The notes under the pieces are model-generated. The model did not search any database and was not told the origin of the DNA. It worked only from the letters and a program-made list of their open reading frames with translations. Shown here one piece after another: positions 634 to 56,328 of a stretch of DNA of 64,000 nucleotides. Within the stretch, counting starts at the first letter, position 1; every line of letters begins with the position of its first letter. The translations under genes and the position numbers were made by a program. This DNA comes from Diprion similis (taxonomy: Eukaryota; Arthropoda; Insecta; Hymenoptera; Diprionidae), in NCBI RefSeq assembly GCF_021155765.1, contig NC_060114.1, forward strand, positions 1,550,001 to 1,614,000, given 5' to 3'.

Positions 634-1075
634 TGTTACGTCCGACGTCCCGCCTCACGTTTCTCCCACCTTCCTCGACGCTTGTCTTTACCTACCATTC
701 CCACACTCCATATCTTGTCATCCTATTTCCATCTTGGCTTACACCACTCGCTATCGCCCTTACCTTGCTATTTCGATCCCCCTCTACCCTGTATCCTCGC
801 TCATTTTCTCATGCAAAAGACTCACGCTGATTCCAACGCTCTTACCTCTTGCATTCAACTTCAACTCCCGTTCCCCAAAACCATTGTCTCAACTACTCCT
901 CATCGACTTCACTCAATTTCCGAATCAAAATAAAAGTTATAATCATTCTGTAATTACTGTTCTTTCCTTTCCGTTCCCTGAACGAAAACGGCGACGACTA
1001 CGAACCTACAAAAATATCACCCGAACCAACATCATCGGGTGGGTACATGGACTGCCGTCCCCCTGTACCGTAACA
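634..1075 (+). repeat. 5' LTR of element A
   Basis: This is a direct copy of 11128-11569 with one visible mismatch, starting TGT and ending ACA. AATAAA occurs at about 928-933, a possible polyadenylation signal. Short open frames across the LTR exist in both copies only because the copies are identical and are not called as genes. Confidence 0.95.
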
Positions 1076-1763
1076 TTCTGGTGGCAGCGGTTTTGCCGTC
1101 GACCTACCCTTTGTTCAGTGCTTCGGAAAATCTACGCAAGAAAAGTATTAATACGCAAAACTTCCGATATCATATCAATAAGTGATAGCCACGTAGACAG
1201 TGTTCGCCGGCAAATCAAGTGCGTACCTGACAAATTCAGGACCCGCAACGAACTGTGCAACGAGTGAAAATATACGACGCAAGAAAAGTGTTAATACGCA
1301 AAACTCCCGATATCATATCAATAAGTGATAGCCACGTCAAGAGTGTTCGCCGGCTAATCAAGTGTGAACCTGACAAATTCAGAACCCGCAACGAACTAAA
1401 TATACGGACGAAAGCCGATCTATACCACACATCACCTTTTGGAACCCAAAATTGTGATTAGCCCCCACCCGTTTCTGGACGCCTGCGACGCTGGAACAAG
1501 AATTTGGACCCAAGATTGGCATCACTCAGATACCTGGAACACCAAACCGAGACTCTTCAACACGCAACGGACTTCCCCGCCTACACCCTCCTCTTGCCGA
1601 CGGACGACGTGCATCACATCTTCAAGTCTCACCTGCCTTCAGCCGCCTACAACCATGCTGTACCTTGCGTTTGTATTCATCTTTGCTCTGTAAGTTTGTT
1701 GTAATCCTTAGTAATAAGTTGATATTTCATCCCCGTACCCATTGCCCATCTCCGAAAATCGAT
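1076..1763 (+). promoter_or_regulatory. Element A leader: primer site and 143-bp-spaced duplication
   Basis: Three bases after the LTR lies TGGTGGCAGCGG (1079-1090), in the position of a tRNA primer site and beginning with the expected TGG; the tRNA is not assigned. Further on, about 120 bp beginning ACGCAAGAAAAG at 1134 recurs at 1277 with few differences, so the leader contains a direct duplication. Its role is unknown; repeated leader sequences can carry packaging, enhancer or insulator sites (inference). No gene is supported in the leader. Confidence 0.6.
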
Positions 1764-2882
1764 ATGGCACCAACTAATGAGACCGGTCCATCTTTTTGGT
1801 CAGTAAAAGACGTCTTACCGACGATCCCTGCATTCGATGGCAACAACATGCCTTTTGACCAATTTGTGGAACAATTGCGCCACGTGGAAACCCTCATTAG
1901 AGCTTCAGACAAAATGACCCTTGCTAAATTTGCACAATCAAAAATTACCGGCCCCGCTTCCCAATATTTAGTAGGCATTAATTGCAACGACGTCGAAGAC
2001 CTTATAACGGCCCTCAGCCGAGCATACCGTCCAGACATCCCCGTACGTCAATTATCAATTCAATTAGATAGAATTACCCAACAACCGCGTGAGCGTGTCA
2101 TCGATTACTCATGCAGAATAAGAGTAATATCAAACGAAATAAGCAAAGCTATCGAAAAAAAATACCCGCCAGACATAGCAAGCGCTTTGCTAAATGACTT
2201 AAGAAAAGACACTGCTAGAACATTCATTAGAGGGCTTAGACCAGAATTAGAGTGGAGAATAGCTACCATCAGACCACTCCCTACCTTTGATATCGCCGTC
2301 AGCGTCGCCGAAAGCGAGGAGACCGAGTTAAATAACCGTCAAATGCAACGCTTTGCACAATATTGTACTCCTCTTACACCTATGTATCCCCCAATTTCCG
2401 TCTCTGCCTGCCAAAACGATACCCCTCCACCTCAGGTGTCCATAACCCCCTCCCTTATCCCCCCTCTAATGTCATTGCCCACACCTGGTTACGCGCATCA
2501 GCAAGCGCCCGGTATCGAACCCATGTCCTACGCCCAAGCGCTCGGTGCAAGCACCCTCGCACCTCCCGCAGATCGAACGAGGACCTCGCCGACTATTTGC
2601 CAATTCTGCAACCACCGAGGTCACCTGATCACGGAATGCCATCACCTGCAAAATACAAGATACTGTACCAAATGTCGCAGAATGGGCCACTTTTACAATG
2701 AGTGCAACCAACCCAGCAGAAGCGACAAACTGTACTGCGATAACTGTAAGCGCAGAGGCCACACATCAGACCAATGTAGATCTCCCCCGCGTGATAACCA
2801 AAACCACGTAAGTTCGAATCAAGATTTAAACGGCAACACTGCCCGCGGGGAGAACGCGCCCGCGAGCTATGCAAACAACTAG
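1764..2882 (+). CDS. gag: Element A Gag (capsid and three-knuckle nucleocapsid)
   Basis: Gag forms the intracellular particle that packages element RNA. The ATG at 1764 begins a protein of about 372 residues; the frame is open further upstream, but this is the first ATG with a gag-like sequence. The N-terminal two thirds are helical and capsid-like, a retrotransposon-gag type region. A Pro-rich linker follows. Then come three CCHC zinc knuckles of C-X2-C-X4-H-X4-C spacing at about 2599-2780: CQFC...H...C, CTKC...H...C and CDNC...H...C. Three knuckles is more than many insect gypsy Gags carry. The stop TAG is at 2880-2882. The protease frame overlaps the last 85 bases in the -1 frame, implying ribosomal frameshifting or a base change at the junction. 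No loss of conserved knuckle residues is seen. Confidence 0.9.
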   Translation: MAPTNETGPSFWSVKDVLPTIPAFDGNNMPFDQFVEQLRHVETLIRASDKMTLAKFAQSKITGPASQYLVGINCNDVEDLITALSRAYRPDIPVRQLSIQLDRITQQPRERVIDYSCRIRVISNEISKAIEKKYPPDIASALLNDLRKDTARTFIRGLRPELEWRIATIRPLPTFDIAVSVAESEETELNNRQMQRFAQYCTPLTPMYPPISVSACQNDTPPPQVSITPSLIPPLMSLPTPGYAHQQAPGIEPMSYAQALGASTLAPPADRTRTSPTICQFCNHRGHLITECHHLQNTRYCTKCRRMGHFYNECNQPSRSDKLYCDNCKRRGHTSDQCRSPPRDNQNHVSSNQDLNGNTARGENAPASYANN

Positions 2883-3493
2883 CGTTCCGATCCACAAGAC
2901 ACATCTTAATAACAGCTTCAGCTGATCCCCCTTTAATTTCAATCGATACCCCTGAATTGACAAAGATCTCTAAATTTATTATCGACACCGGTGCAGACGT
3001 AAACTTAATCAAAGAAAGTTGTGTTAAGCCCTTCGTACGTCGCACCACAGACGAACGTTTGACATTGACTGGTATAACGGACGGTAAGACGGAAACCATC
3101 GCAAAAACGGAAATACGCTTTAATAACAACTCCCATACCTTTCACTTGGTCCCTGATTCATTCCCAGTCCCACATGACGGTATTTTAGGCCAACCCTTTT
3201 TACGAAAAGAGAAAGCAACTATCTCGTTCAACTCAAACTCGGTAATGCTTGGATCCTCATTGCCAATCCACTTCAACAAAATCGAACAACCTCCTCCTGA
3301 AACCGCACGTGTTATCACAATACAGGCCCGCACCGCGAAGGTCATCCCGATAATAGTTGCAAACCCAGATATCAAAGTAGGCTACCTTAAACACATTAAT
3401 TTAGGCAACAATGTTCTTTGTGGTGAAGCAATAGTTCGAAATCAGAACGGCATGCTTATTCCTACGTGTTCAATTGCAACGAATCTGTCGTAG
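2798..3493 (+). CDS. pro: Element A aspartic protease
   Basis: This frame is open from 2798, overlaps the end of gag by 85 bases in the -1 frame, and has no ATG of its own near the overlap, so it is probably made as a gag extension. The retropepsin active-site motif is IIDTGAD, coded near 2977-2997, followed about 60 residues later by GILGQPFL, the usual flap and second conserved loop. This protease would mature the Gag-Pol particle proteins. The C-terminal part (HINLG...ENG-like region) resembles the linker that normally runs into RT. The frame stops at TAG 3491-3493, while pol continues one frame further back, so the gag, pro and pol frames are three different ones. Confidence 0.85.
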   Translation, partial: PKPRKFESRFKRQHCPRGERARELCKQLAFRSTRHILITASADPPLISIDTPELTKISKFIIDTGADVNLIKESCVKPFVRRTTDERLTLTGITDGKTETIAKTEIRFNNNSHTFHLVPDSFPVPHDGILGQPFLRKEKATISFNSNSVMLGSSLPIHFNKIEQPPPETARVITIQARTAKVIPIIVANPDIKVGYLKHINLGNNVLCGEAIVRNQNGMLIPTCSIATNLS

Positions 3494-6400
3494 AGATAGC
3501 ATCTCCAACGGCAACCCTGGAAGAATTCGACGAACCACTGAGCACAGCCATGCCCGAAATTAAGTCTACCCCGCCGAATAATTCTGACAAAAATAATGGA
3601 CAAAAATCCCCCCTTCCTACCCAAACCACTTCTCATAATAATTCATTAATTCTTTCCACTAATAATCACATATCCCGTCCGCCCCATTACCCCCCCTCCA
3701 ACCCCCGCCAGCTCACTGACCTCGCACATCGGCAACCTGAGCCCCTCATACCTGATAACAGCGCACCTCGTCGTGGCGCCGCAACAGTACTCTTAACTGA
3801 CAGTAGGTCAGAGAGATTGGACACACTAAAGAATAGTGTGTGCCTCGATCATCTAAATGACACCGAAAAACAATCAACACTCGACCTGCTAACAGAATTT
3901 AACCATCTTTTCTATCTCCCGGGAGATAAATTAGGCCATACCAATCTAACCCATCACACTATCCCCACGACAGACGACACACCAATTCACACCAAACAAT
4001 ATCGTTTTCCAAAAATCCACAAAGATGAAATCGAATCCCAGGTCAATAAACTCCTTCGGCAAGACCTTATTAAACATTCCGCATCTCCTTATAATTCTCC
4101 GGTTTGGATCGTCCCCAAAAAACCCGATATTGACGGTAATAAACGATGGCGCATGGTGATCGACTACCGAAAGCTCAACGAAAAAACAATCGGCGACGCT
4201 TATCCAATGCCCGACATCACCGAAATTCTTGATCAACTTGGCTCAGCTAAATATTTCTCTACATTCGACCTTGCTTCCGGCTTTCATCAAATTCCCATGC
4301 ACCCCGATCACAGTGCAAAAACTGCGTTTTCGACGCCCCGGGGTCACTATGAATTCTCCCGAATGCCCTTCGGACTAAAAAACGCCCCTGCCACGTTCCA
4401 AAGGCTCATGGATCAAGTCCTGCTAGGCTTACAAGGCAACGAGATGTTCGTATATTTGGATGACATAGTTATTTACGCTCGAAATTTACAAGAACATGAA
4501 ATTAAATTCAGAAAATTGATGAAAAGACTAACTGAAGCCGGCTTGACTCTGCAGCCAGACAAATGCCAATTCCTGCGCAAAGAAGTCGTTTACCTTGGTC
4601 ACCTTATCACTGAGTCAGGAGTTAGACCTGACCCCGGGAAGTTAGTAGCCGTGAAAGAATATCCCGTCCCGAAAAATCCCAAAAATGTTAAACAGTTCCT
4701 CGGTCTTTTGGGTTATTATCGCAGGTTTGTCCCAAATTTCGGAAAAATTGCAAAATGCCTCACTAACCTAACCAAGAAGGATACCCCTTTCATTTGGACA
4801 TCCGAACACCAATCTGCCTTCGAAACCTTACGTGATTCTTTATGCAAAGAACCAATTCTCCAATACCCGGACTTCAGTAAGCCGTTTACGCTCACTACCG
4901 ACGCGTCAAAATTCGCCATCGGTGCGGTTCTGAGTCAAGATAAGAACGGTGCCGACTTACCAGTAGCGTACGCATCCCGAGCACTCAAATCCGCTGAATT
5001 AAATTACTCGGTGCCCGATAAAGAATTTTTAGCCGCCTACTGGAGCATCAACCACTTTCGCCCCTACATCTACGGTCAGAAATTTACTTTAGTTACAGAC
5101 CACGAGCCCCTCAAGTGGGTAAAAAGCGTTAAGAAGCCTAATTCTCGTTTATTACGATGGAGTCTAGAACTAGCAGAATACGATTTTGATACCAAACATA
5201 AATCGGGAAAAGCGAATGTCAACGCCGATGCTCTATCAAGAAACACGCCGCCTGACGTCGCACAAATCCTTCCTATAGATGCAAAACGCCCTCGTCCCAC
5301 GACCGAATCCTCTGACAGCAAACCGAAAAAACGCACCAAAGAGACCCATCAGTACCCCCGACGCCCTCGACAGACCACAGACGAATCTACGAACCCGGCC
5401 CCGCTAAAATGCCCAAAAATCTCACAACCCACCTACCAAATGATATACCCCTCTGATTCTTCTGATCTCTCAGATGACGAATCCAGTGACAAAGAAACCG
5501 CAATGCCTTTTAAACCTCCCCCCTCCATCCCACCTCCGCACCCGGTTCATCCCTACCCGAAACGCCATCGAGAAACGAATTCCTCTACAAACCCTGGACC
5601 ACGTAAGAGACCACACCTGAGCTACTTTTCGGACACTTCAACTAGCTCAGATGACCTACAAACCCCAGAGACGAACTCAGAAGTTGATGACATTAATTCG
5701 TCTACCGATTTACCTAGCTCCCCTCACATTCACAACCCCTCCTATAGCGATTTCCTTATAGAATGCGACACGTTCCCTCTTATGCGTAATAAATATATTA
5801 AAGAAATAAAAGCCGACCTACTACAGCAAAAAGATAATTTGGCTCACTGCATATCAGCTGATTGCCAAATGTCAAAAGGAATCGCGTCACAGCTAAGAGA
5901 ACGTAAATTCATAAATCGCGAACAACTTAGAGAATTCAATCCGACTGTGACTGACGTTATTTCTACCACTCACGGACACCGAAAAATTTATAACCTAGTG
6001 ACAAAGCCAAAGTACAATGACAAACCCTTACCACACGTTTTTTTTGATACCTTGGTCAACTTTAGGAAAACCTTGGAAGAAGATGGTGTAACATCTGTCT
6101 CAATCCCGTTAATAGGCTGCGGACTCGACAAACTAGAATGGAGCACGGTGCGCAAAATGATCCAATATATTTTCAAAGATTCAAAAATGAATATCAACGT
6201 TTGTCGCCTTGACCCTCCGCTTTCAACCCCCACACACCACGACGACACAACGGTGTCCGTTGATGACGCCTCACCTGACCCCATCCCTTCCACATCTGGT
6301 AACCCCGCTCCCTCTCTTCGTCCGCCGCGTAAGAAACCGCGACCTCCGACCAAATCAGTCGCACCTCTCGCGACCCCACCTCCCCTCCCAGCCACGAACG

Positions 6401-8202
6401 TCGTCATGCCCCCGCCTGTAGGACCCCCGCGTCGTGCTAAGAGACGCCCAACAGCTGTCCCCAGGCCAGCGAACTCTACTACTCACCCCCCTCCGCCTCC
6501 TCCCTCAGTACCCTCACTGGCCTCTGATAACGACAACAGCTCCAACTCGCTCACGGATACCGAATACCATACATGCGCCCGACAATCCGAATCCGATATG
6601 GAAACCACACACCCTGACCATGACATTGATCCCAATGTCGACGACGATTTGACCGATACCTCCCACGATTTCACGAACTTTGTTGACAACTTGGACGACA
6701 TACCGGTAGCTGACAATGTCAAAGACACCAATGATGGTCTTTTGATGCTCAAAACCAATTATGCACACTTTATATCAACAGACTGCTCTTGGACTAAAGG
6801 CATATCATCACAACTTGCCCATAATAATATCGTTGACCCAGATATAGTTATGACGCCCCGTCCACAGAAATTTGATATTATCGAATCCAAGCATAACAGC
6901 CGACAGATCTTTACTCTAGTACTAAAATCGAAAGAATCAGATAAAAGCAACCTATATGATATTTTTCAACTCTTGTCTAAACTGAAAACAGTCTTGACCG
7001 ATTCAATTCCGAAATCCCTCGCTTTCCCAATAACGGACGATAGTTTAGGTGGACTCGTTCCTCGTGTTATCCGAAAACTCTTATCTTACCTTTTCGCAGA
7101 CTTACAAATTCAAATTACGCTTTGCAGCAACACGACTGTCACCCCAGACGAATGTTTACGTAAAGAAATAATTAAAGAATGCCACGAATCATTAATTGGC
7201 GGTCATCAAGGCGTCACAAAAATATACAACCGCATTAGACAAAAATATTTTTGGCCCCACATGAAAGAGCAAATCCAAGACTTTATAAGAACCTGTGAGA
7301 GTTGCCAAAAGAAAAAACTAGTAAGAGTAAAAACCAGGTTGCCGATGGTGATAACAGATACTCCTGCCGATGCATTCGACAAAGTAGCACTAGACATCGT
7401 TGGTCCTCTCCCCCTTACTAAATCAAACAACAAATACCTTTTGACGATACAATGCAACTTGACGAAATTTCTGGACGCCATCCCTTTACCTGACGCCACT
7501 GCCAAAACAATAGGTGCAGCATTCGCGAAAGAATACATTACACGTTACGGTGCCCCTCGAGCAATACTTACAGACCAAGGACAGAATTTCATGAGCACAG
7601 TCATTAAGCAACTTTGTAAACTCTTTAAAATAAAACAAATTCGAACTACAGCTTACCGCCCACAATCTAACGGATCGCTAGAACGCAGTCACCTTGTTCT
7701 CACCGAACACGTCAAGCATTACACGAATGCTGGTAAAGACTGGGATGAATACATCCGCTTTGCTGTTTTCTGTTATAACACCGCGAAGCACGAAGGCACT
7801 AACTTCACTCCCCATCAGCTAATTTTCGGTTCCCATGCCAGACTTCCGACAGACGCGAACCCTGCCAGCGCTTACACCCGTTCCTACGATTCGTTCCTTC
7901 TAGATTTAATTTCCAACCTATCCAGCATACGAAAAAACGCCGCGGCTAACCTCATTTTAGCAAAGCACCGTTCCAAGACGTACTACGACCGTCGTACCAA
8001 TAACCAAAATTTCGAAGCAGGCCAAAAGGTCTATCTACTAAACGAAACCCGATCTAAATTTGACGACCACTATAAAGGAGCATATACGATCAAGCGCATA
8101 ATTGACGATATCAATGCCGAAATTTTCATCACCCCCCATCAGACCAAAATTGTCCATCTGAATAAACTCAAATTAGCACAGGAAGAAAGTGATTCAAATT
8201 AA
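3427..8202 (+). CDS. pol: Element A Pol: RT, RNase H, two macrodomains, integrase
   Basis: The frame opens at 3427 and overlaps the protease frame. Residue numbers here count from codon 3466. RT: conserved YRF/PxxKxR region, PFGL, and YLDD at about 330-333. RNase H: TDAS start, then H and D motifs, to about residue 595. A Pro/Ser-rich linker follows. Macrodomain 1 spans about 778-915, with HCIS-DC, LVTK (Lys 847) and IGCGLD (Asp 888). A second Pro-rich linker precedes macrodomain 2 at about 1089-1221, more diverged: its Lys is kept (1154), but the Asp loop reads DDSLGG. Integrase: H-H-C-C zinc finger from about 1235, then catalytic Asp 1310, Asp 1370 and Glu 1406 with 35 residues between the last two. 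Gypsy Pol normally has a short RNase H-integrase linker; here it is about 630 residues. Macro 1 closely resembles OARD1/TARG1 ADP-ribose hydrolases. Confidence 0.93.
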   Translation, partial: SNSSKSERHAYSYVFNCNESVVEIASPTATLEEFDEPLSTAMPEIKSTPPNNSDKNNGQKSPLPTQTTSHNNSLILSTNNHISRPPHYPPSNPRQLTDLAHRQPEPLIPDNSAPRRGAATVLLTDSRSERLDTLKNSVCLDHLNDTEKQSTLDLLTEFNHLFYLPGDKLGHTNLTHHTIPTTDDTPIHTKQYRFPKIHKDEIESQVNKLLRQDLIKHSASPYNSPVWIVPKKPDIDGNKRWRMVIDYRKLNEKTIGDAYPMPDITEILDQLGSAKYFSTFDLASGFHQIPMHPDHSAKTAFSTPRGHYEFSRMPFGLKNAPATFQRLMDQVLLGLQGNEMFVYLDDIVIYARNLQEHEIKFRKLMKRLTEAGLTLQPDKCQFLRKEVVYLGHLITESGVRPDPGKLVAVKEYPVPKNPKNVKQFLGLLGYYRRFVPNFGKIAKCLTNLTKKDTPFIWTSEHQSAFETLRDSLCKEPILQYPDFSKPFTLTTDASKFAIGAVLSQDKNGADLPVAYASRALKSAELNYSVPDKEFLAAYWSINHFRPYIYGQKFTLVTDHEPLKWVKSVKKPNSRLLRWSLELAEYDFDTKHKSGKANVNADALSRNTPPDVAQILPIDAKRPRPTTESSDSKPKKRTKETHQYPRRPRQTTDESTNPAPLKCPKISQPTYQMIYPSDSSDLSDDESSDKETAMPFKPPPSIPPPHPVHPYPKRHRETNSSTNPGPRKRPHLSYFSDTSTSSDDLQTPETNSEVDDINSSTDLPSSPHIHNPSYSDFLIECDTFPLMRNKYIKEIKADLLQQKDNLAHCISADCQMSKGIASQLRERKFINREQLREFNPTVTDVISTTHGHRKIYNLVTKPKYNDKPLPHVFFDTLVNFRKTLEEDGVTSVSIPLIGCGLDKLEWSTVRKMIQYIFKDSKMNINVCRLDPPLSTPTHHDDTTVSVDDASPDPIPSTSGNPAPSLRPPRKKPRPPTKSVAPLATPPPLPATNVVMPPPVGPPRRAKRRPTAVPRPANSTTHPPPPPPSVPSLASDNDNSSNSLTDTEYHTCARQSESDMETTHPDHDIDPNVDDDLTDTSHDFTNFVDNLDDIPVADNVKDTNDGLLMLKTNYAHFISTDCSWTKGISSQLAHNNIVDPDIVMTPRPQKFDIIESKHNSRQIFTLVLKSKESDKSNLYDIFQLLSKLKTVLTDSIPKSLAFPITDDSLGGLVPRVIRKLLSYLFADLQIQITLCSNTTVTPDECLRKEIIKECHESLIGGHQGVTKIYNRIRQKYFWPHMKEQIQDFIRTCESCQKKKLVRVKTRLPMVITDTPADAFDKVALDIVGPLPLTKSNNKYLLTIQCNLTKFLDAIPLPDATAKTIGAAFAKEYITRYGAPRAILTDQGQNFMSTVIKQLCKLFKIKQIRTTAYRPQSNGSLERSHLVLTEHVKHYTNAGKDWDEYIRFAVFCYNTAKHEGTNFTPHQLIFGSHARLPTDANPASAYTRSYDSFLLDLISNLSSIRKNAAANLILAKHRSKTYYDRRTNNQNFEAGQKVYLLNETRSKFDDHYKGAYTIKRIIDDINAEIFITPHQTKIVHLNKLKLAQEESDSN

Positions 8203-8332
8203 ACCACCTTTAGAAGTCAACAGCCGTATATTACCAATCTACCCGTAACTGCATCATATTCCGCCTCATGCCCTCAGATATCATTGCAGGTGCAACGCCC
8301 TAAACAGCGAGACAGACGAATCATCCACTGTC

Positions 8333-10354
8333 ATGATTAAACAACTGAAACAGAACCCGGGCATCTTCTTCGAACAACTGCAAGACTTGCGTACATATAA
8401 CGAAGAATGGACCCTGCTAAACTACGTGGACCTCCAAAACCTATTCGACCGACTTGACCAAGCATCAGATTTCTTGAATATAATAGAGAAAAAGTGCTCT
8501 TTGGCCAAGAGCAATTGCCAGACCGGTAATCACATCCCAATGTTGGCTAACAGAATAAAAACCATGAAAACATGTCAAAAAAGAATCGAATACCTAGTCG
8601 GCCAACGCACAGGCGAATCGACCCACTCTGAACTTGCAAAGCTAGCCCACCATCGCAAAACACGAGGCGCGATTAACTTCATTGGTAGCATATCAAAATC
8701 TCTATTCGGTACCCTAGACGTGGAAGACGGAGAATATTACAATCAACAAATCGACAACCTTTACAATGACAGCAGACACTTAGCATCTCTCCTTAATAAA
8801 CAGACTAATATCGTCCAGTCAACACTAGGCGCCTACAAAAAAGAACTCGACAGCATTATAAGCCACAACCACGAACGCGATACGTTACTTACGATTCTCT
8901 CGAATGATGCAGCTATCTCAAAAGCCTTAATTGCTGACAATACCTTTAGAACAACCTTACTCAACCGACTAATGGACTTGGACCGACACTTGAACGAATA
9001 CGAACTTGACCTGTACAGCCTATCAGATGCCATTCTTTTCGCACAAAAAGGTATTGTCCACCCCAAAATTCTATCACCGAACGAAATTATTTCTAGCCTT
9101 AAGCATATCCAGTCTCTTAGACCGCAAATAGAATTCCCTATCCCACTAGACCCAAACTACGCCGAAGAATTAATTCGCATATCACAAATCGACATAGCGT
9201 ATTCCAAGCCCAGGCTCCTTTACGTTATATCCATCCCACTGCTCAACCCCGACGCCTATAACCCATACAGACTGCTCCCCGTCCCTGTAAGACAGACGTA
9301 CGACTCAACAAATAACAAATTCGCCTACATTCAACCTGGCAGTGATTACGTAGCTATAGCACTTAACCGAGCGTCATACTTCCAAATTTCAGAATCTAAA
9401 TTCACTGGATGCGTTTTGTCTTTGGGTAAATTCATATGCAAACTGACACAACCACTGTTTCACCCCTCAACTCACCGACTCTGTGAGGTTGGTCTTTTTC
9501 TAAACCCCTCTGAGAAAATTGCAAAAGAATGCGATATCAGACTGACCGCATTCGATGGTACCTACTGGACAGAACTATCTACATCCAATTCTTGGATTTT
9601 CTCGTCTTCCACTCTTGAAACTCTACATATTCTCTGCTCAAATGACCACACCTCCCGTGTGACGATCTCCGGCTCAGGAATTATCTCCCTGAACGACTTA
9701 TGTACGGCTAGTACCTCTGAAGTAACCCTCAAAACCTCGAAACGTTCCCAATCTACCGAGACACTCTCCTACGTTCCCAAGGTTACCCTTGATTTAAGCG
9801 AAATATCCGTTAGTCTTGATTTTAATATTTCCACTGATTTATCCCTCGTCGCCATCCCCCCCTTGCGTGAACCTTCACACATTAACTCCCATGACCTTGC
9901 CATCGCTGGCGTTGCCCTGAATGACGTGCTCAAACGCTCAGCCGATCTAAGCACACACTACCGTACTCAAAGTAACATGCATCGCCTCACCACCAGCCTC
10001 AGCTATGGCGGAATCGCCTTCGCGTCCCTCTCAGCAGTTTTCTTTTGCTACAAACTCTCATTATTTAGAAGAATCTCAAAAGTATACTCTTGCTGTAAAC
10101 CCAGGCGAATACGCCACAACCTCGACTCACGTCATCCAAGACCGCAAATCCTTTCCCACCATGCCATTTCCCACCCTCACCTAGAAAATAGGTCATTCCC
10201 TAAGGACCTGTCTCCTCGCACTTCGTCGCTGCCCCGAGCTCATTCAGAAATTGAAATGATGGAAATGTCCAAGCTACGACAACACCCACGTAAACTGCCC
10301 CGCGATCAGAGCCTTGACGCTAGTTCCGACTCCCTCTTCATCTGGACAGACTAA
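8333..10354 (+). CDS. env: Element A Env: baculovirus-F/errantivirus-type envelope glycoprotein
   Basis: The ORF has 673 codons from the ATG at 8333; the frame is open from 8249. A basic furin-like site RKTR lies at residues 108-111, directly followed by a hydrophobic GAINF...LFGTLD segment, as in baculovirus F proteins and insect errantivirus Envs (fusion peptide region). A transmembrane segment is at about 558-577, then a basic cytoplasmic tail of about 95 residues. There is no N-terminal signal peptide. Pyrimidine-rich sequence ending in CAG at 8275-8277 and 8287-8289 could be the 3' splice site of a spliced env RNA that supplies the leader from upstream (inference). The protein would act at the cell surface in membrane fusion. 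The ORF is uninterrupted. Assignment rests on the cleavage site, flanking motif, membrane anchor and position after pol. Confidence 0.85.
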   Translation: MIKQLKQNPGIFFEQLQDLRTYNEEWTLLNYVDLQNLFDRLDQASDFLNIIEKKCSLAKSNCQTGNHIPMLANRIKTMKTCQKRIEYLVGQRTGESTHSELAKLAHHRKTRGAINFIGSISKSLFGTLDVEDGEYYNQQIDNLYNDSRHLASLLNKQTNIVQSTLGAYKKELDSIISHNHERDTLLTILSNDAAISKALIADNTFRTTLLNRLMDLDRHLNEYELDLYSLSDAILFAQKGIVHPKILSPNEIISSLKHIQSLRPQIEFPIPLDPNYAEELIRISQIDIAYSKPRLLYVISIPLLNPDAYNPYRLLPVPVRQTYDSTNNKFAYIQPGSDYVAIALNRASYFQISESKFTGCVLSLGKFICKLTQPLFHPSTHRLCEVGLFLNPSEKIAKECDIRLTAFDGTYWTELSTSNSWIFSSSTLETLHILCSNDHTSRVTISGSGIISLNDLCTASTSEVTLKTSKRSQSTETLSYVPKVTLDLSEISVSLDFNISTDLSLVAIPPLREPSHINSHDLAIAGVALNDVLKRSADLSTHYRTQSNMHRLTTSLSYGGIAFASLSAVFFCYKLSLFRRISKVYSCCKPRRIRHNLDSRHPRPQILSHHAISHPHLENRSFPKDLSPRTSSLPRAHSEIEMMEMSKLRQHPRKLPRDQSLDASSDSLFIWTD

Positions 10355-10433
10355 GCCCTCTACTACATATTTATAAGAACATATCCATTGTTATGCCCAA
10401 ATATCATTCAATAAAAATGTCTCAAATTACGCT

Positions 10434-10866
10434 ATTATAATAACCGTATACACTATCTACAATTATACTCCTGACATTGTCATTTAACTTTGACTTGTAT
10501 CTATAATATCTACAATCAAAACCCTAAAAATTATAATTTAACTATAATCGTATATATACTATCTACAATTATACCCCTGACATTGTCATTTAACTTTGAC
10601 TTGTATCTACAATATCTACAATCAAAACCCTAAAAATTATAATTTAACTATAATCGTATATATACTATCTACAATTATACCCCTGACATTGTCATTTAAC
10701 TTTGACTTGTATCTACAATATCTACAATCAAAACCCTAAAAATTATAATTTAACTATAATCGTATATATACTATCTACAATTATACCCCTGACATTGTCA
10801 TTTAACTTTGAGTGTATCTATATTATCTACAATCAAAACCCTAAAAAATTATAATTTAATTATAAT
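10434..10866 (+). repeat. Four tandem copies of a 106-bp AT-rich unit in element A 3' region
   Basis: The marker CTGACATTGTCATTTAAC occurs at 10471, 10577, 10683 and 10789, exactly 106 bp apart each time. The copies are nearly identical; the last is slightly diverged (TTTGAGTGTATC). The array lies between env and the 3' LTR. A run of 18 or so A at about 10927 follows it. No coding potential is seen. Function is unknown. Confidence 0.9.
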
Positions 10867-11115
10867 TGTACCTTTATAATATGTAACTACTACACGCTTA
10901 AATTATAAGAACATACCAACTGTTACAAAAAAAAAAAAAAAAAACATTTCTGCTAAAAATGTATACTAACCCGCTTAAACGCGCATTAACCCTAGGCGCT
11001 ATACTCTTTAAGGCAAACTATATTGTAATCTTTCGTAAGTGAGTCGATACATTACCCAAAAAATTCTGTTTTCCTTCGAACATTCGGCTCTGTACCCTCA
11101 CCGAATGTTCTTCCC

Positions 11116-11127
11116 GAAGGGGGGGCG
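11116..11127 (+). promoter_or_regulatory. Polypurine tract of element A
   Basis: GAAGGGGGGGCG lies immediately before the 3' LTR, in the position where plus-strand DNA synthesis is primed in LTR retroelements. Confidence 0.75.
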
Positions 11128-11569
11128 TGTTACGTCCGACGTCCCGCCTCACGTTTCTCCCACCTTCCTCGACGCTTGTCTTTACCTACCATTCCCACAC
11201 TGCATATCTTGTCATCCTATTTCCATCTTGGCTTACACCACTCGCTATCGCCCTTACCTTGCTATTTCGATCCCCCTCTACCCTGTATCCTCGCTCATTT
11301 TCTCATGCAAAAGACTCACGCTGATTCCAACGCTCTTACCTCTTGCATTCAACTTCAACTCCCGTTCCCCAAAACCATTGTCTCAACTACTCCTCATCGA
11401 CTTCACTCAATTTCCGAATCAAAATAAAAGTTATAATCATTCTGTAATTACTGTTCTTTCCTTTCCGTTCCCTGAACGAAAACGGCGACGACTACGAACC
11501 TACAAAAATATCACCCGAACCAACATCATCGGGTGGGTACATGGACTGCCGTCCCCCTGTACCGTAACA
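11128..11569 (+). repeat. 3' LTR of element A
   Basis: This is a 442-bp copy of the 5' LTR with one mismatch noted. It is followed by CGTT, the matching target duplication. Confidence 0.95.
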
Positions 11570-11819
11570 CGTTCTTGTGAAATAAATGTGAATATTATGA
11601 ATTTAATTTGTGGAAAAATATGTGATAAATAATTGTGTAATTTTGTGTAATATATGGTTTTGCTCCCCGAAATAATCCATAAAATCATCATCATTATCAC
11701 GAGATGTGTGGCCAAAAATGCATGTGGCAAAAATATGCAGAAAAAATTTCTCAAAGACACTTTACCCGAAAGACTCTTCTCCCCGTGTAGAAATTTCTTA
11801 GGGAAGGCCCTAACCACGT

Positions 11820-26054: not shown

Positions 26055-27680
26055 ATGGGAAAGAAGAGGAACCACGATCATTCGGCATCGAAGGAGGAGA
26101 AGAAAAATGAAGATTTAGTTGAGAGACTGAAAGAAATAGTGACGAATATCGACCGGAGATATAACAAACGTAAGTTGGAGGCGAACATAACCTCTACGTG
26201 CTTGGCGTGGGGGACGCCACGAGAATTGACTCTTTCTGAAAGATCAGTTACTGACAAGGATTTGTTGGTCGGGCTCCCTATAGTTGTTGTGCCAGCGATC
26301 TGATCGCTCGGCCGCGTGCCTTCGGTCTGACCGAGGCGCACGCCTTCGTTTGACGAAGGAATGCAACATACATTGTTCAGTCTCCATGGGTCTGACCCTC
26401 GGATATAGACATTTTCATTTGATGAAAAATTGAACAATTTAAAAATGATGAAAAACCAAGTATTGGCATTATATGCTCGTTTACCCTTTAGGTTATAGAT
26501 CGAGTTCGCCGCGTCGTCGAGATCGCTCTCGAACGCGTCACAGGAGGGACGGCGAATGCAGACGACAATCAGATCGTCGCAGTCGGTCTCGTAATCGCTC
26601 GCGATATTCTGTGGGTCGATCACGACGTTCGAGCAGCCGCTCACGTCACGCTCGTCGCTCAGAGCGTAGTCGCTCGGTCATTCTCGTCACGCAGGGCGTA
26701 GTCGCTCGAGAGAATTTGACAATGGTTCGCAACAATCTCTGCAGGAGTCGGAGGAAGAGCGAGAGGAGTCTCAGATACAGACTCAGAAAAATAACGAGGT
26801 GGTAATCGTTAATGAAAAGTTGCCAGCGGGTCCATCGGCACCTGAAACAACGGTCCCGGTCAGCACCGAACAGCAGGCGAGCTTGACCGATCAAGACATT
26901 CAGAAACAACCCGAGCATGAAACTGACCTTCAAGAGGACGTATTAAACGTACTTGGGCCACGTTTGGAACCAGACCAGAAGAAGGCCCCTTCATTGCACA
27001 AGGACATCGTTATTCGTTGGATGGAAATATTCAAAAAAGGGCTTTCCAAGGAGGAAAACAAGAACCTCGTGGAGAAATATAATATTCCGGAAAACTGTGG
27101 GTTCATAGCTGCTCCGGTGTTGAACTCGGAGGTCATTGCCGCGGTACAAGATAACGTCAAAACAAGGGACAAGCGTATCACCGAGAAACAGGAGCGCATT
27201 GCTTCCTGTATGGCAGCCATGGGAAAAGCGATCTCCATTACGCTAAAATCGGATCGTCAAGAAAAACTCGAGTTGCTAGAAATTCTGAGTGACACAGGAA
27301 GACTCCTGGCGTTTCTCCAGAGGGAGGAATCAGAAATTCGTAGAAGCTTGATCCTCGCAAATCTCAACTCGTCCGTGAGAGAAATCTTGACGTGCTCGAC
27401 AGTCGACGGTTTCCTGTTCGGGGCGAACCTGGAAGAAAAAATCAAGACTGCGAAGACGATCGAGCGTGCATCGAAGGACCTGGTTCAAGAAAAAACATCA
27501 AAACCCAAGGACTCAAAAAACCAGAGAGGCCCGCCGGCGCAGCGTCAGTTGACGCGCAAGAAGAATTGGACGTCGAGCGGGCCAAAAAGACCGGCGAACG
27601 ACAAATTCAGCTCGAGGCCGAAGAAAACGTATCCTCGGAGGACGCGGTTCTCGGACAGACGCCGATACTTCCCAACGTAG
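26055..27680 (+). CDS. DIRS-A ORF1 (gag-like), predicted spliced, with Arg/Ser-rich domain
   Basis: ATG at 26055 (MGKKRNHD). Exon 1 ends at 26169 before GTAAGT. An AG at 26490-26491 after pyrimidines starts exon 2; the 322-bp intron carries in-frame stops and several short hairpins. Splicing restores the frame and enters an Arg/Ser-rich segment (RSSSPRRRDRSRTRHRR, about 26492-26665). After that the gag-like part continues one frame back (frame change near 26668, probably a lost base). The conserved part, 26930-27500, with IRWMEIFKKGL and LSDTGRLL motifs, matches DIRS-B at 39400-41180. A basic tail ends at 27680 and overlaps the RT ORF. Likely RNA binding/particle protein (inference from position). 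Confidence 0.7.
26170..26491 (+). other. Predicted intron in DIRS-A ORF1
   Basis: 5' site GTAAGT at 26170, 3' site TTTAG ending 26491. It removes the in-frame TGA at 26301-26303 and joins codons in phase. The donor is conserved at 23921 in DIRS-B. Inside are stem-forming stretches such as GTGCCTTCGGTCTGACCGAGGCGCAC at about 26319. Confidence 0.6.
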
Positions 27681-29557
27681 GTAAAACTGCGGGCCGATTG
27701 CGGTTTTTTAATCAAGCATGGTCAAAAGTATCGGCTGATCCTGTAATTCATGAATGGATCAGAGGATTCAAAATTCCTTTTACGTCACTTCCTGTGCAGG
27801 GAAAAATCTCGGAAAAAACGGATTGGTCAAATAACGAAAAATTGGCGATCGCATGCGAGATAGAAAAATTGTTAAAAAAGGGCGCGATACAGAAGGTTAT
27901 TCCGTCCTCGGACCAGTTCCTATCAAACATTTTTTTAGTGCCAAAGCCCGACGGTACGCAAAGGTTTATATTGAACCTCAAAAAACTTAACGAGTTCATA
28001 AATGCGGAACATTTTAAAATAGAAGATTGGCGAGTGGCGAAGTCGCTAATTGAGCCGGAGTGTTTTATGGCGTCGATCGATATTAGGGACGCGTATTACC
28101 TCGTATCGATAGAAAAGAGTTTTCGAAGGTTTTTACGGTTCCAATATAATGGCGTATATTACGAATTTAATTGCTTACCGTTCGGTTTAAACGTCGCGCC
28201 TTTCGTATTTACAAAAATACTCAAGCCAGTGGCCGCGTATCTAAGAAAACAAGGTTTTAGGTCCGTCTTCTACTTAGATGATATTTTGCTTATCGGAAAA
28301 TCATACGAAGATTGCGCAAAAAATTTTCGAGCTATGACAGCTATTCTAGAGGAACTCGGGTTCATAGTCAATGAGAAAAAATGTCGTAGGATTCCCGCAA
28401 AACGATGCAAATATCTAGGACTTATTTTCGACTCGGCGAAGGTGACGATCGAATTGCCCGAAGACAAGATTCAAAGATCTCTCGATCTATTGAAAAAATT
28501 TGGAAAAATTAAAAGATGCTCGATTCGTGAGTTCGCATCCTGCATCGGTACTCTTGGCTCGTGCTGTCCCGCGATAAAATATGGCATGATACATATGAGG
28601 CGGTTCGAAAAAGTCAGGTTATTAGCACTCGAAGAAAATAATAATAATTATGACATGACTATGATTATTCCGGAGGAATTAAAAGAGGATATCGAGTGGT
28701 GGACGCGAAATATAGTCTCAGCCAGTGCTCCTTTGAATGAGCCAGTATTCGATTACGAGATTTATACCGATGCTTCGCGCACAGGATGGGGGGCAGCTTG
28801 CGAAGGTCGACGGGCGAACGGACACTGGAGCACGGATGATTTGAAGTTCCACATTAATCATCTCGAGTTGGTAGCCGCATTCTTCGGACTAAAATGTTTT
28901 TTAAGCCATAAAAAACAATGCAACGTGCTCCTTCGTATCGACAACACCACCGCAATAGCTTACATAAATCGTATGCGGGACAGCCGGTTCGATAATCTTA
29001 GCGATATAACAAAACAAATATGGGATTGGTGCGAAGCCAGGGATATTTGGATTGTTGCGGGATACATTGCATCGGAAGAAAATATAGAAGCGGATTACGA
29101 GTCGCGAAAATTACAGCCGGAAACGGAATTCGAACTCGCGGATTATGCGTTTCGAAAAATAGTAAGAGCGTTTGGCAAGCCGAGAATCGACCTGTTTGCC
29201 TCACGAACAAATACGAAATGCGAGCGATATATCTCATGGCGCCGAGATCCCGAGTCATTCGCGATCGATGCTTTTACCGTAGAATGGAATCAATGGTTTT
29301 TTTACGCGTTTCCGCCATTCTCAATCATTTCGAGAGTTTTGCGAAAAATTTGCCAGGATCGCGCAGAGGGAATTGTGGTTGTACCGTATTGGGAGGGCCA
29401 ACCTTGGTTTCCCCTTTTTTCCTCGCTAGTTATTGGCGATCTTGTTTTTCTCAAACCAAATGCTAATCTGTTGCATTCTTCCAACAGGAACCCTCACCCG
29501 CTGTCGAAGCAACTTACACTGGTTGCCGGCATGCTATCAGGGAAGCGTTCATCTTGA
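27392..29557 (+). CDS. DIRS-A reverse transcriptase, RNase H and methyltransferase-like protein
   Basis: This open frame of up to 721 codons overlaps the ORF1 end in the -1 frame; the true start is unclear and may be by frameshift. RT: KRFILNLKKLN-type motif (here QRFILNLKKLN), SIDIRDAYY, CLPFGLNVAP and the catalytic YLDD near 28271. RNase H: EIYTDASRTGWGA, HLELVA and RIDNTTAIAYI. C-terminal region: IDLFASRTN, AFPPFSII and VPYWEGQPW, the DIRS-specific Dam-like methyltransferase-like domain of unknown necessity. It copies element RNA into DNA. No internal stop is seen. The stop TGA (29555-29557) overlaps the start of the recombinase frame. Confidence 0.92.
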   Translation: MLDSRRFPVRGEPGRKNQDCEDDRACIEGPGSRKNIKTQGLKKPERPAGAASVDAQEELDVERAKKTGERQIQLEAEENVSSEDAVLGQTPILPNVGKTAGRLRFFNQAWSKVSADPVIHEWIRGFKIPFTSLPVQGKISEKTDWSNNEKLAIACEIEKLLKKGAIQKVIPSSDQFLSNIFLVPKPDGTQRFILNLKKLNEFINAEHFKIEDWRVAKSLIEPECFMASIDIRDAYYLVSIEKSFRRFLRFQYNGVYYEFNCLPFGLNVAPFVFTKILKPVAAYLRKQGFRSVFYLDDILLIGKSYEDCAKNFRAMTAILEELGFIVNEKKCRRIPAKRCKYLGLIFDSAKVTIELPEDKIQRSLDLLKKFGKIKRCSIREFASCIGTLGSCCPAIKYGMIHMRRFEKVRLLALEENNNNYDMTMIIPEELKEDIEWWTRNIVSASAPLNEPVFDYEIYTDASRTGWGAACEGRRANGHWSTDDLKFHINHLELVAAFFGLKCFLSHKKQCNVLLRIDNTTAIAYINRMRDSRFDNLSDITKQIWDWCEARDIWIVAGYIASEENIEADYESRKLQPETEFELADYAFRKIVRAFGKPRIDLFASRTNTKCERYISWRRDPESFAIDAFTVEWNQWFFYAFPPFSIISRVLRKICQDRAEGIVVVPYWEGQPWFPLFSSLVIGDLVFLKPNANLLHSSNRNPHPLSKQLTLVAGMLSGKRSS

Positions 29558-30501
29558 GACAAGCCCCACCGGAGTCAATCGACATTCTCATTGCGTCTCT
29601 AACAGACGCAACTATCCGGCAATACGATTGTGGGTTGAAAAAATGGTGGCGTTTCTGTGCAACCACCGGTGTCAATCCATTAAGGGGCTCGCCAATGGAC
29701 GTTTTGTCTTTTCTCACAAAAGAATTTCAAAATAACGCCTCATATGGATCGCTCAATTGTTATCGATCAGCGCTTTCGCTCATTCTGGGCTCGAATTTGG
29801 GAGAAGATGAGAGGGTAACACGGTTCTTTAAAGGGGTTTCAAAATTGAGGCCTTCTGCTCCACGTTACGATTCGACGTGGGACCCAAAAATCGTGTTACG
29901 TTTATTTTCAAGCTGGGGGTCGAATGAAAACATTTCAATGGAGAAACTTTCTATGAAACTAGTTACATTATTAGCGTTAATGACCGGTCATCGGCTGCAA
30001 ACTTTTGCATTAATAGATATTCGTAATATCCGAAAAATTGACGAGAAATCTTACGAGATAAAGATTCCGGACCGAATAAAAACTTCGGCTCCGAATAAAA
30101 AGCAGCCGGTATTGCGCTTACCGTTTTTCACAGAAGACAGATCTCTGTGTATAGCGTCAGCTCTTGAAAGTTACTTAAACAGAACGAAAGATCTGCGCAA
30201 CGCGATTTGGAGTCTTTTTATTTCGTTCAAAAAACCGCATAAGGCGGTTACGTCGCAGACGTTATCTCGTTGGGTTAAAAAGACTTTGTCAATAAGCGGC
30301 GTGGATGTTAACGTTTTTACCGCGTACAGTACGCGTCACGCCGCCACGTCAGCAGCGAAACGGGCTGGTGTAAGCGTTGATTTAATACGAAAAACGGCAG
30401 GTTGGACACAGGAGTCCGCGACCTTTGGTCGATTTTATGATCGAGAGGTTTTGCCGGACGAAGTCCAATTTGCTGAGGGCATTCTCGGTAATAGAGATTA
30501 A
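29554..30501 (+). CDS. DIRS-A tyrosine recombinase
   Basis: The ORF has about 315 codons, beginning in the overlap with the RT stop; there is no ATG at the overlap (the equivalent ATG exists in DIRS-B). Core-binding SAM-like N-terminus (IRQYDCGLKKWWRF). Catalytic residues: Arg in TGHRLQT, the HxxR-like box in AYSTRHAATSA, and the nucleophile Tyr in FGRFYDRE. It integrates the circular DNA copy by strand exchange without a target duplication (family knowledge). It is closely similar to 49845-50786 in DIRS-B. Confidence 0.93.
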   Translation: MRQAPPESIDILIASLTDATIRQYDCGLKKWWRFCATTGVNPLRGSPMDVLSFLTKEFQNNASYGSLNCYRSALSLILGSNLGEDERVTRFFKGVSKLRPSAPRYDSTWDPKIVLRLFSSWGSNENISMEKLSMKLVTLLALMTGHRLQTFALIDIRNIRKIDEKSYEIKIPDRIKTSAPNKKQPVLRLPFFTEDRSLCIASALESYLNRTKDLRNAIWSLFISFKKPHKAVTSQTLSRWVKKTLSISGVDVNVFTAYSTRHAATSAAKRAGVSVDLIRKTAGWTQESATFGRFYDREVLPDEVQFAEGILGNRD

Positions 30502-47315: not shown

Positions 47316-49844
47316 TTTCAAATAGAGGTTGGCTACTAAGCGTTATCCTGCGAATCATCGCTGAGAATATCGGCCCTTTTCAGAGCCACCAACATATTGC
47401 AGGATAATCTATCAGTCACGTAGCACAAACTGAGTGAAATAGAATTAAACCCAATTGCAGCACAGGTTTGCTCAACAAACCATAACCGTACTGGAATTCT
47501 CAGAACAGATATGTATAACTCCGAGAAAGGATGACCAGTGGACGGATACTGAAGGGCTAAGGTGGTTCAATAACTATTTCCGTAGAATGGATAGCGTGGG
47601 TAAGTGGAAGAGCGTCAAATGAAATTTAACTCCATTATATCGTATATAATATACGCAACACAGCGAGCTCGCGCGGATAGCGCTGACGTGGATCGAGACG
47701 TTTCATTTTTTTTCTCCGGCCCTGGTAACTTCTCCATGAATTTTTTTTTTAAGATTGAAGAGGAAGGATACAGATATCCGAAAAAAATTATCTCCACGAA
47801 TTGTTGTTAGTCCCGTGGAAATGGCAGCGAAATCAAAAAAGAAAACGGTAAAAAAATATTGAAAGAAATTTTTTTTTCCAAATAAATTTTTTTTTATCGA
47901 AGCGCATTCTTTTACAAACAGAATGATTGCAAGATCAGTCCGCTCCGATGTATACTTTCGGAGATATGAATTTTCAAACATAGCAGTGCAACAGTGGTAT
48001 ACAAAACTTTACATGGCTCTAACTTCGCCATTTTTGAAAAAATTTCAAAATCTTTGAAATTGTATTTTTTTTACACAGTACTACGGATATTTCAAATGGC
48101 GCAAAGATCCGTGACTTGACGGTTTTTTTTTTAGTGAAGTGACATGGATTCGCTCATATAGAACAAAATTTTCGATGGGGACTGAAAAAAAAAATAGTCG
48201 TTCAAAAAAAATCGCCCTAGTATGTATATATATATTCATAATTTAACGAATTTTAATCCGATTTTTGAAAGATCGATTCTTTACTAGACGATCTTTGCAT
48301 GAAACGATTTTCATTAATCCGATTCAAGATCGATTCAAGAATCGATCTTTTCCAGAGAATCGCCCATCCCTAACTGGGCTAAGGCTCTCTCTTCTTCCGC
48401 CCAACCTATTTTTCACTTCCTTCTTCCCAGTGCGTTCATAGTGATAAGACTAACGTTAGACATACAGAGATGAAAAATGCGTTACTAAATGAAGAATAAG
48501 AAAATAAACGTGCACCCAAGAAATATAGAGAGATCAACATCTACCTTCCCAAATCCACAATATTATAACAGATTTGCTGTTAATAGGGGATACATACATA
48601 GAATGCTTAGAAAATCTAAATAAGACCGTAGATCTTTTGAACAAACTCGGATTCATTATAAATTATGAGAAAAGCCAGATGATACCCAACATGAGATGCA
48701 AATTTTTAGGTTTTATTTTTAATTCAAGTCAAATGACAATGGAATTGCCAGATAACAAAAATACAAAAGCTTTACAACTGATACGTCAGTTTAAATTAAC
48801 AAAAATATGCAAAATTAGAAAATTTGCAAGTTTTATAGGTTTTTTAGGATCTTGTTGCCCAACCTTAAAATACGGTTGGGTCTATATGAAAAATTTTGAA
48901 AGAGAAAAATACTTAGCTTTAAAAAATAGCAAGGATAATTTTGAAGCTCCTATGCAACTGTTTCCTCATCTACAACAGGACTTCCATTAGTGGGAAAATA
49001 ATATTTCATCTGCAACTAACTCTATCAGATACCCAAAATTTATACCAACCATTCATTCGGATGCTTCCAAATCTTGCTGGGGAGCCTGCTGCGGAAATGA
49101 AAAAATAAATGGTTTTTGGTTTAAAGAGGAATCCGAACTAGATATTAATTATTTAGAAATGCTGGCTGCATTTTTCGGATCAAAGTGTTTTGCGGACGAA
49201 AATCTAGAATGCGATGTATTATTAAGAATTGATAATACAACCACGATTTGCTATATCAACCGCATGTGCGGTATTCAGTTCAAAAATCTAAATGATTTGG
49301 CAAAACAAATATGAATGTGGTGTGAGAGGCGAAAGATTTGGATATTTGCCTCTTACATTACATCCAAAGAAAATTCAGAGGCAGATTTTGAATGTAGAAA
49401 ACTGGAACCAGAAACAGAGTTTAAACTATCAGACAATTCCTTTGAAGGAATATGCAAAACGTTTGGACCTCCAGACATAGATCTATTCGCGACTCGAACA
49501 AACTCAAAATGCACTAAATTTGTTTCTTGGTTCAAAGACCCACATTCTATAGCAGTAGATGCATTCACTATCAGTTGGAAAAAATATTTCTTTTATGCAT
49601 TTCCACCTTTTTCTATAATCTTGAGAGTTTTACAGAAAATTAGGTGTGAAAAAGCGACTGGAATAGTAGTAGTTCCTTATTGGCCAGCACAGTCATGGTT
49701 CCCCTTGTTTAAATCATTGTGCATAGAGGAACCCATTTATTTCAAACCAAACATTACCTTATTATGTTCGTTGAACAGGAAACCACATCCTCTATGGAAA
49801 CAACTTTCCCTGGTTGCCGGGAAATTGTTCGGAGGTCATACGCA

Positions 49845-50786
49845 ATGAAAGGAATACCAAAGAAATCAATAGACATAATGCTTTCATCCTTGACCGAATC
49901 ATCGATAAAACAGTATGACTGCGCACTTAAAAAGTGGTGGAATCACTGCATATTTAGAGACATCGACCCCCTTTCGGGATCTATCTCAGATGTACTCAAC
50001 TTTCTCTCGGATGAATTTAAGAAAGGATCGTCATATGGCTCCTTAAATTGTACAAGATTAGCAATATCCTTAATTCACGAGTCAGATTTAGGCCAAAATG
50101 CAAAAATTAAAAGATTCTTTAAAGGTGAAGGAAAACTACGACCTCCTTTACCAAAATATGATACTATATGGGACCCAAAAATCGTGTTAAACCTCTTATC
50201 CCGGTGGTCCCTCTCGAACGAATCTGACCTTGAGAAATTGTCATTAAAACTCATCACTCTGTTAACACTAGTGACAGGCCAGAGAATTCAGACTCTATCT
50301 CTCATCGATATAAGAAACGTAAGAAAGACAGATAAACACATTGAAATCAAAATACCCGACAGAATCAAAACATCAGCTCCCAGAAAGATACAACCCACTT
50401 TGATTCTACCAATTTACCATGAAAACCCCAGGATATGTGCAGCATCTACTTTGGAGTATTATTTACAAAGAACCAACGAGTTACGATGTTCTGAATCTCA
50501 TTCCTTGTTCCTATCATTTAAAAAACCGTATAAAGCGGTATCCACTCAAACGTTGAGTCGTTGGGTTAAACAAACCCTTTCAAGGAGCGTGGTGGACACG
50601 AGTATATTTAGTGCACACAGCACGAGGCATGCTTCTACCTCAGCTGCGAGTAGACAAAATATTAACATAGATATAATTAGGAAAGCGGTAGGTTGGACCA
50701 AAACCTCGGAAACCTTTGCAAGATTTTATAAACTCCCGGTTATATTAAACAAAGATCTCTTTGCAAGATCAGTTTTAGAAGGTTAA
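49845..50786 (+). CDS. DIRS-B tyrosine recombinase
   Basis: The ATG at 49845 overlaps the RT stop as ATGA, suggesting translational coupling. It has about 313 residues and is uninterrupted, in contrast to the other DIRS-B genes. Motifs: SIKQYDCALKKWW (core-binding), Arg in TGQRIQT, AHSTRHASTSA and the Tyr in FARFYKLP. It is similar across its length to the recombinase of DIRS-A. An isolated functional recombinase could still act on DIRS ends, but this is speculation. Confidence 0.9.
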   Translation: MKGIPKKSIDIMLSSLTESSIKQYDCALKKWWNHCIFRDIDPLSGSISDVLNFLSDEFKKGSSYGSLNCTRLAISLIHESDLGQNAKIKRFFKGEGKLRPPLPKYDTIWDPKIVLNLLSRWSLSNESDLEKLSLKLITLLTLVTGQRIQTLSLIDIRNVRKTDKHIEIKIPDRIKTSAPRKIQPTLILPIYHENPRICAASTLEYYLQRTNELRCSESHSLFLSFKKPYKAVSTQTLSRWVKQTLSRSVVDTSIFSAHSTRHASTSAASRQNINIDIIRKAVGWTKTSETFARFYKLPVILNKDLFARSVLEG

Positions 50787-56300: not shown

Positions 56301-56328
56301 GTTTGGTATATCTCTTTTTTCACCGGCT

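Follow-up and report, generated by a model that had tools for sequence, protein, structure and literature searches.

The window analysed in this study, 64,000 nucleotides of Diprion similis (contig NC_060114.1, positions 1,550,001 to 1,614,000, which is part of contig C10 in the 269-Mb genome G000), harbours at 634-11569 a complete env-bearing Ty3/gypsy insertion with long terminal repeats (LTRs), which is errantivirus-like. Its pol open frame (3427-8202, 1591 codons; all features of the element lie on the plus strand) encodes two macrodomains, M1 (5797-6207) and M2 (6721-7128), between RNase H (4795-5226) and integrase (7156-7722, H2C2 and rve). The reverse transcriptase (RT) lies upstream of them at 4078-4626, and a proline-rich linker, which can be read directly in the sequence, separates M1 from M2 (6208-6720, with no Pfam match in 6211-6708). 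An initial annotation made from the letters alone had described this arrangement and assigned the modules to the OARD1/TARG1 type, and both statements agree with the profile comparisons given below.

The other parts of the element are those of an errantivirus-like insertion, since the LTRs, the order protease, RT, RNase H and integrase, and an env of the baculovirus F type are all present. The 5' LTR (634-1075, 442 bp, TG...CA) and the 3' LTR (11128-11569) are flanked by the target-site duplication CGTT (630-633 on the left and the same four bases at 11570-11573 on the right), and they differ at one of 442 bases; because of this single mismatch, a recent insertion is suggested. A primer-binding-site-like stretch (1079-1096), called so from its position and from the TGG with which it starts just past the LTR, is followed by a gag-like open frame (1458-2882, 474 codons), which is named by position, all zinc-knuckle matches being below the cut-off. 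The retroviral aspartyl protease (2798-3493, RVP E 4.7e-5) lies in a frame different from that of pol in the window copy. In eight other copies there is an open frame of 1801-1802 codons, and in the three examined at length (L009-L011) it spans from the protease to the integrase. The env frame (8249-10354, 701 codons) encodes a baculovirus F-like fusion protein (Baculo_F E 4.5e-54), and 53-nt tandem repeats occupy 10447-10917 directly 3' of env, before the 3' LTR.

M1 (query 5734-6210) matched the chains of human OARD1 with an E value of 2.6e-20, query residues 23-157/159 being aligned with OARD1 residues 9-144/146. The Lys and Asp of M1, which the initial annotation had singled out as Lys 847 and Asp 888 counted from codon 3466, are encoded at 6004-6006 (in NLVTKPKYN) and 6127-6129 (in GCGLDKLEW), and they are aligned with the LITK and GCGLD motifs of OARD1; we take them to correspond to the catalytic Lys84 and to Asp125 of that enzyme. 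In OARD1 the Lys attacks the ADP-ribose of the glutamyl or aspartyl ester and the Asp assists. The profile check that had been proposed for the modules was positive for OARD1, whereas M1 of the window did not reach the cut-off of the general Pfam Macro model PF01661 (17.1 bits, gathering score 22) and M2 was not among the matches of that model. Because of this low score, the OARD1-specific comparison was needed. When the Pfam Macro model was applied to eight related pol proteins, five reached or passed the cut-off (P0104, P0105, P0109, P0114, and P0110 with exactly 22.0), each of which also has RT and/or integrase above the cut-offs, two (P0002 and P0117) scored below it, and one (P0118) was not listed. 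From these comparisons, M1 is almost certainly a macrodomain of the OARD1 type, and it is probably an active hydrolase.

M1 also matched the NCBIfam model of the DarG antitoxin (E 3.1e-10), and its membership in that family was rejected with 39.9 bits against a cut-off of 250, OARD1 being the better match. A DarG-like role, in which M1 would take ADP-ribose off nucleic acid (element RNA, cDNA ends or host DNA) and not off protein, can draw on this match, on the polyprotein that M1 shares with RT, RNase H and integrase, and on the activity of TARG1 on ADP-ribosylated DNA as well; with a score so far under the cut-off and a better match to OARD1, we regard such a role as quite unlikely.

M2 is the degenerate module of the pair. 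As the initial annotation had noticed, DDSLGG stands in M2 of the window where GCGLD is expected and is found in M1. M2 of the window alone gave no significant match to solved structures (E 0.45), and the two modules of the window match each other in tblastn (E 1.6e-20). A profile of ten M2 sequences from several families, which contained no M1, matched OARD1 with E 2.3e-16 and a 22-sequence OARD1-like profile with 99.6% in hhalign, and a profile of only four M2 sequences from family A, to which the window element belongs, gave E 0.011 against OARD1 and 97.3% in hhalign. A chance resemblance to macrodomains was rejected on the E values of M1 and of the ten-sequence M2 profile. GCGLD is found in none of the 28 M2 rows covering the loop (30 rows listed), and in the aligned columns Lys is present in 14/30 and Asp in 14/28. 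Moreover, eight M2-type domains share two invariant columns, neither of which is that of the Lys or the Asp, those letters each being present in six of the eight. M2 is filed here as a fold relative rather than as an enzyme, although in some families it may not be completely inactive. A third module, M0, is found upstream of RT in family B and matches OARD1 with 95% in hhalign; its Lys is missing in all four covering rows and its Asp in all six. In L016, the only locus with the protease in view, M0 lies between protease and RT.

The macrodomains are not restricted to the window copy. M1 was found at at least 35 places in the genome, including that of the window, with 84-100% identity spanning at least residues 9-158, and several further M1 families with 34-41% identity occur in the same genome; these counts are lower bounds, the best 150 candidates having been scored. 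Forty loci were then considered, 20 chosen by macrodomain matches, which is a biased choice, and 20 hand-picked from RT matches. After iteration of the profile on these same loci, a macrodomain was detected in 32 of them (E 1e-2 or better); the first profile, made of M1 of the window and OARD1-like proteins, had detected one in 31 at E 1e-3. Among the RT-picked loci, macrodomains are present in 12 of the 13 whose RT is at least 68% identical to that of the window, the thirteenth, L030, having RT alone; the first profile detected them in 11. They are present in none of the seven with 44-62% identity. The gap between RNase H and integrase is 78-354 nt in six of these seven macro-less loci, against 1929 nt in the window. 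At L042 (C2:3475300-3482400), about 2.5 kb lie between RNase H and a short integrase piece, and no macrodomain was found there. In the RT tree of 36 unbroken rows (broken RTs, the macro-less L045 among them, as well as L024 and P0120 were left out), the 24 macro-bearing sawfly-type rows, including P0105, form one group with support of 93/97, just short of the tool's star, which suggests a clade-wide spread of the modules.

The domain content differs among the families. Family A, that of the window, has M1 and M2, to which family B adds M0 (L014, L016, L017 and L025, partly L029 and L038); families C (L018 and L019) and D (L020 and L037) have M1 and M2 with long linkers; and family E (L032-L036 and L039, 6/40 loci) as well as L031 have only an M2-type domain. 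In family E this domain adjoins the integrase and is preceded by a long segment for which Pfam gave no match (L033), nor was there any Pfam match of weight for the linkers of families C, D and E. In addition, L012 (C10:1501000-1507500) is a mosaic, the synonymous divergence (dS) from the window copy being 0.26-0.73 in RT, RNase H and M1 and 0.07-0.11 in linker, M2 and integrase, as if two sublineages of family A had recombined.

Elements with macrodomains are also found outside the genome of the window, in Neodiprion, Athalia, an aphid and further assemblies, and the nearest named macrodomain matches are those of the sawflies Neodiprion virginianus and Athalia rosae. An earlier protein search gave three matches among 150 candidates, of which only P0002 (Neodiprion) is a retroelement; its macrodomain lies past RNase H and the protein stops before the integrase. 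In a wider search with 687 candidates, 17 proteins had an E value of 1e-3 or better, and 10 of the 17 have retroelement domains; such domains were not found in P0106, P0107, P0108, P0111, P0115, P0116 and P0119. RNase H and integrase flank the macrodomain in P0104 (Athalia), P0105, P0109, P0110, P0112, P0113, P0114 and P0118. In P0117, from the aphid Uroleucon formosanum, it lies past RNase H; this protein has no integrase, and a baculovirus F match follows later in it. P0120 is a distant LTR pol with the OARD1-type macrodomain (residues 1644-1777) at the C-terminus, past the integrase, a placement that is perhaps a separate gain. The scan of viral contigs with M1 alone gave no relative, and with the M1/OARD1 alignment the best 80 of 127 stretches, taken with flanks of up to 3000 bases, all contained an OARD1-like frame (median 152 codons), none of the 80 having a match to RT, RNase H, integrase or protease at E 1e-3. 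OARD1-type macrodomains also occur in two RNA-virus polyproteins, P0003 (residues 1344-1468) and P0119 (residues 1257-1378), both with the Lys and GCGLD kept, one context having methyltransferase, helicase and RdRP_2 and the other FtsJ and a match to the flavivirus NS5 thumb. Further OARD1-type domains were seen in a copepod DNA ligase 3 (P0004, residues 805-938) and in a protein of a mayfly that also has helicase and Tudor domains (P0116, residues 918-1051; named RNA helicase in its source).

The host has two neighbouring OARD1-like genes of its own (C2:13509247-13509848 and C2:13511750-13512689), and in both of them the match breaks into two parts near query residue 88, the pattern expected of an intron. 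That the modules are a one-off capture of a host gene in the window copy, an outcome which the initial annotation had named as speaking against its reading, or else an artefact of the assembly, is contradicted by the many near-full-length places, by at least five divergent families in this genome and by the elements of other insects, and the host genes are two-exon genes located elsewhere; a one-off host capture was rejected, and we regard the likelihood of this explanation as negligible. The M2 domains of families A to E form one group (95/87); because they group together, one duplication of the macrodomain before the split of the families would suit the tree. The number of captures depends on the sampling. 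In one sampling, the best tree groups M1 of family D with an RNA-virus domain, next to the OARD1-like genes of the host, and a single clade of all element macrodomains (21 rows of 39) is rejected (p 0.014); in the other, M1 of family D stands beside a mayfly protein and a single clade of all pol macrodomains is not rejected (p 0.30). The aphid-type and the older sawfly-type macrodomains group together (91/93), and the RT trees are compatible with one shared gain of the aphid-type and sawfly-type elements (p 0.28) as well as with separate gains. The trees allow either one capture, or one capture and a recapture in family D.

We propose that a cellular macrodomain of the OARD1/TARG1 type was taken up by an env-bearing insect Ty3/gypsy lineage, in which it entered Pol at the junction of RNase H and integrase and would later have been duplicated. 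M1 would be a mono-ADP-ribosyl hydrolase that is made within Pol and packaged with it and, because it is made as part of Pol, it is expected where reverse transcription and integration occur, that is, in the reverse-transcription/integration complex. There it might strip off ADP-ribose that PARPs of the host or other ADP-ribosyltransferases had attached, its targets being proteins of the element, nearby host proteins or nucleic-acid ends, and this removal would be an answer to host ADP-ribosylation. M2 beside the integrase would most likely be a structural or ADP-ribose-binding partner. The hydrolase activity, the packaging and the removal of ADP-ribose are predicted by analogy, from OARD1 and from the place of M1 in Pol. 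A captured and duplicated macrodomain, with M1 active in the Pol complex and M2 as its partner, is the best explanation as a whole, and we consider it reasonably likely; to a counter-defence served by M1 we give slightly less than an even chance.

The conservation of the modules bears on this proposal. In 14 M1-type domains, hand-chosen from the genome of the window (including two of family D), Neodiprion, Athalia and further assemblies, with the partial P0117 left out, 11 of the 139 model columns are invariant, and both the Lys and the Asp are among them (14/14). In a list of 30 M1 rows, which includes many near-copies and fragments, Lys is present in 27/27 and Asp in 25/26 of the covering rows. 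The ratios of nonsynonymous to synonymous divergence (dN/dS) were calculated pairwise, pairs with very low dS scattering to 0.8 and above and pairs with saturated dS giving no value. For M1 the ratio is 0.06-0.25 in family C, 0.16 in family D (L020 vs L026) and 0.28-0.31 for family A against L012. For M2, the comparison of family A with L013 gives 0.16-0.20, the pairs of families C and D whose dS is under 1.5 give 0.12-0.17, and family E gives 0.13-0.76; the linker has 0.43-0.68 (family A against L012). These values suggest purifying selection on the macrodomains, looser than that on RT. The alternative that the modules are passengers or structural spacers, i.e. relics or folding spacers without ADP-ribose function, would fit the changed or lost catalytic motifs of M2 and M0 and the absence of M1 from family E, but an invariant Lys and Asp in all 14 M1-type domains and ratios well below 1 in the better-resolved pairs make it very unlikely.

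Several points weigh against the proposal of an active and selected hydrolase. The dN/dS of M1 is 0.21-0.48 in family B and 0.27-0.48 for family A against L013 (0.33-0.48 for the window copy and L009-L011), and it rises to 0.81 between very close copies. Against L012, M1 has values above those of RT (0.08-0.09) and RNase H (0.05), and M2 has 0.35-0.50, which overlaps the range of the linker. L012, a decayed mosaic, is however a poor standard for the parts that follow M1, because the integrase itself has 0.41-0.56 against it. Furthermore, family E and L031 are without M1, so the catalytic module can be absent, and the Drosophila errantiviruses known to us do without such macrodomains.

Each of families A to E includes at least one locus whose M2 stops no more than about 11 residues from the integrase match, and the same is true of P0104 and P0105. 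This closeness, together with the dN/dS of 0.12-0.20 of M2 in the better-resolved pairs despite the lack of GCGLD, could also be explained by integration targeting, in which the macrodomains, above all M2, would recognise chromatin-borne ADP-ribose and direct the integrase to DNA that is PARylated or under repair, in the way that chromodomains steer chromoviruses. However, M1 keeps hydrolase residues that would be superfluous in a pure reader, and the loop of M2 is altered; we think that targeting is unlikely. The proposal of an active M1 with M2 as its partner can be extended further, and here we are more speculative: an insect ADP-ribosylation defence against endogenous retroviruses might be answered by a Pol-packaged pair that erases and reads the mark, with an active M1, a degenerate M2 by the integrase and sometimes M0 before RT. 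Such a pair would have been maintained while sawfly and aphid elements diverged, with a second OARD1-like capture perhaps renewing it in family D. We regard this extended scenario as possible, on the doubtful side. If such an enzyme is indeed kept beside RNase H and integrase, this would suggest that ADP-ribosylation restricts reverse-transcribing elements in insects, and it raises the question of an ADP-ribose mark on integration complexes and of its reading or erasure by retroelements. The question is directly testable; M1 is small and assayable alone.

Pieces of other mobile elements are found elsewhere in the window. At 27344-30498 and 49713-50783 there are matches to RVT_1 (E 1.9e-23) and to tyrosine recombinases (E 3.3e-8 and 2.2e-11) and a weak Dam methylase match (E 5.8e-5, below the cut-off), which we take to be DIRS/Ngaro-like elements. 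An open frame at 36049-37113 matches a Monjiviricetes viral fusion glycoprotein (E 2.8e-142) of the mononegavirus/chuvirus type and is perhaps the env of another element. On the minus strand, 55227-57525 contains pieces of a non-LTR retrotransposon, with endonuclease (E 1.9e-8) and RT (E 3e-12).

Among the matches listed in a search of titles and abstract starts of the open-access literature, a scope outside which most subscription papers lie, no macrodomain in the Pol of a gypsy element or errantivirus is described. PMC12440569 has no place that mentions a macro domain, and in 12 of the 17 matching places in PMC2774666 'macro' stands for macroevolution. The case is a little less novel than the initial annotation supposed, since fish retroviruses with macro-domain open reading frames precede it. 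As described in a review (the parts of PMC4977317 citing Basta et al. 2009, whose full reference is given in PMC10499221), some ray-finned fish sequences, mostly epsilon-like, have extra frames encoding macro-domain proteins. These epsilon-like endogenous retroviruses are similar to the window element in having a macro domain on a retroviral element, and the difference, as far as that description goes, is that the fish macro domains are additional open reading frames, while those reported here are embedded in Pol.

Compared with OARD1 (TARG1, C6orf130), M1 is alike in the near full-length domain and in the Lys/Asp pair; the difference is that here the module is part of the Pol of a retroelement, which contains between one and three such modules, M1 alone among them having the full motif. 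To our knowledge, errantiviruses have a short linker between RNase H and integrase and no macrodomain. In its LTRs, the order gag-pol-env, the baculovirus F-like env and the 4-bp target duplication, the window element is like the errantivirus/gypsy clade of Metaviridae (background in parts of PMC12993057). Turning to viruses, the RNA-virus macrodomains (nsP3, Mac1 and the X domain of hepatitis E virus), to which abstracts ascribe a role in de-ADP-ribosylation, are likewise virus-encoded within a polyprotein, and M1 of the window differs from them in being of the OARD1 type and in its company of RT and integrase. Most macrodomains known from viruses are those of plus-strand RNA viruses, in which they undo host ADP-ribosylation, and the three just named belong to other macrodomain classes. 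Non-primate lentiviruses carry a dUTPase between RNase H and integrase, which is likewise a captured nucleotide-related enzyme at this place of Pol, although the enzyme and the virus group are different.
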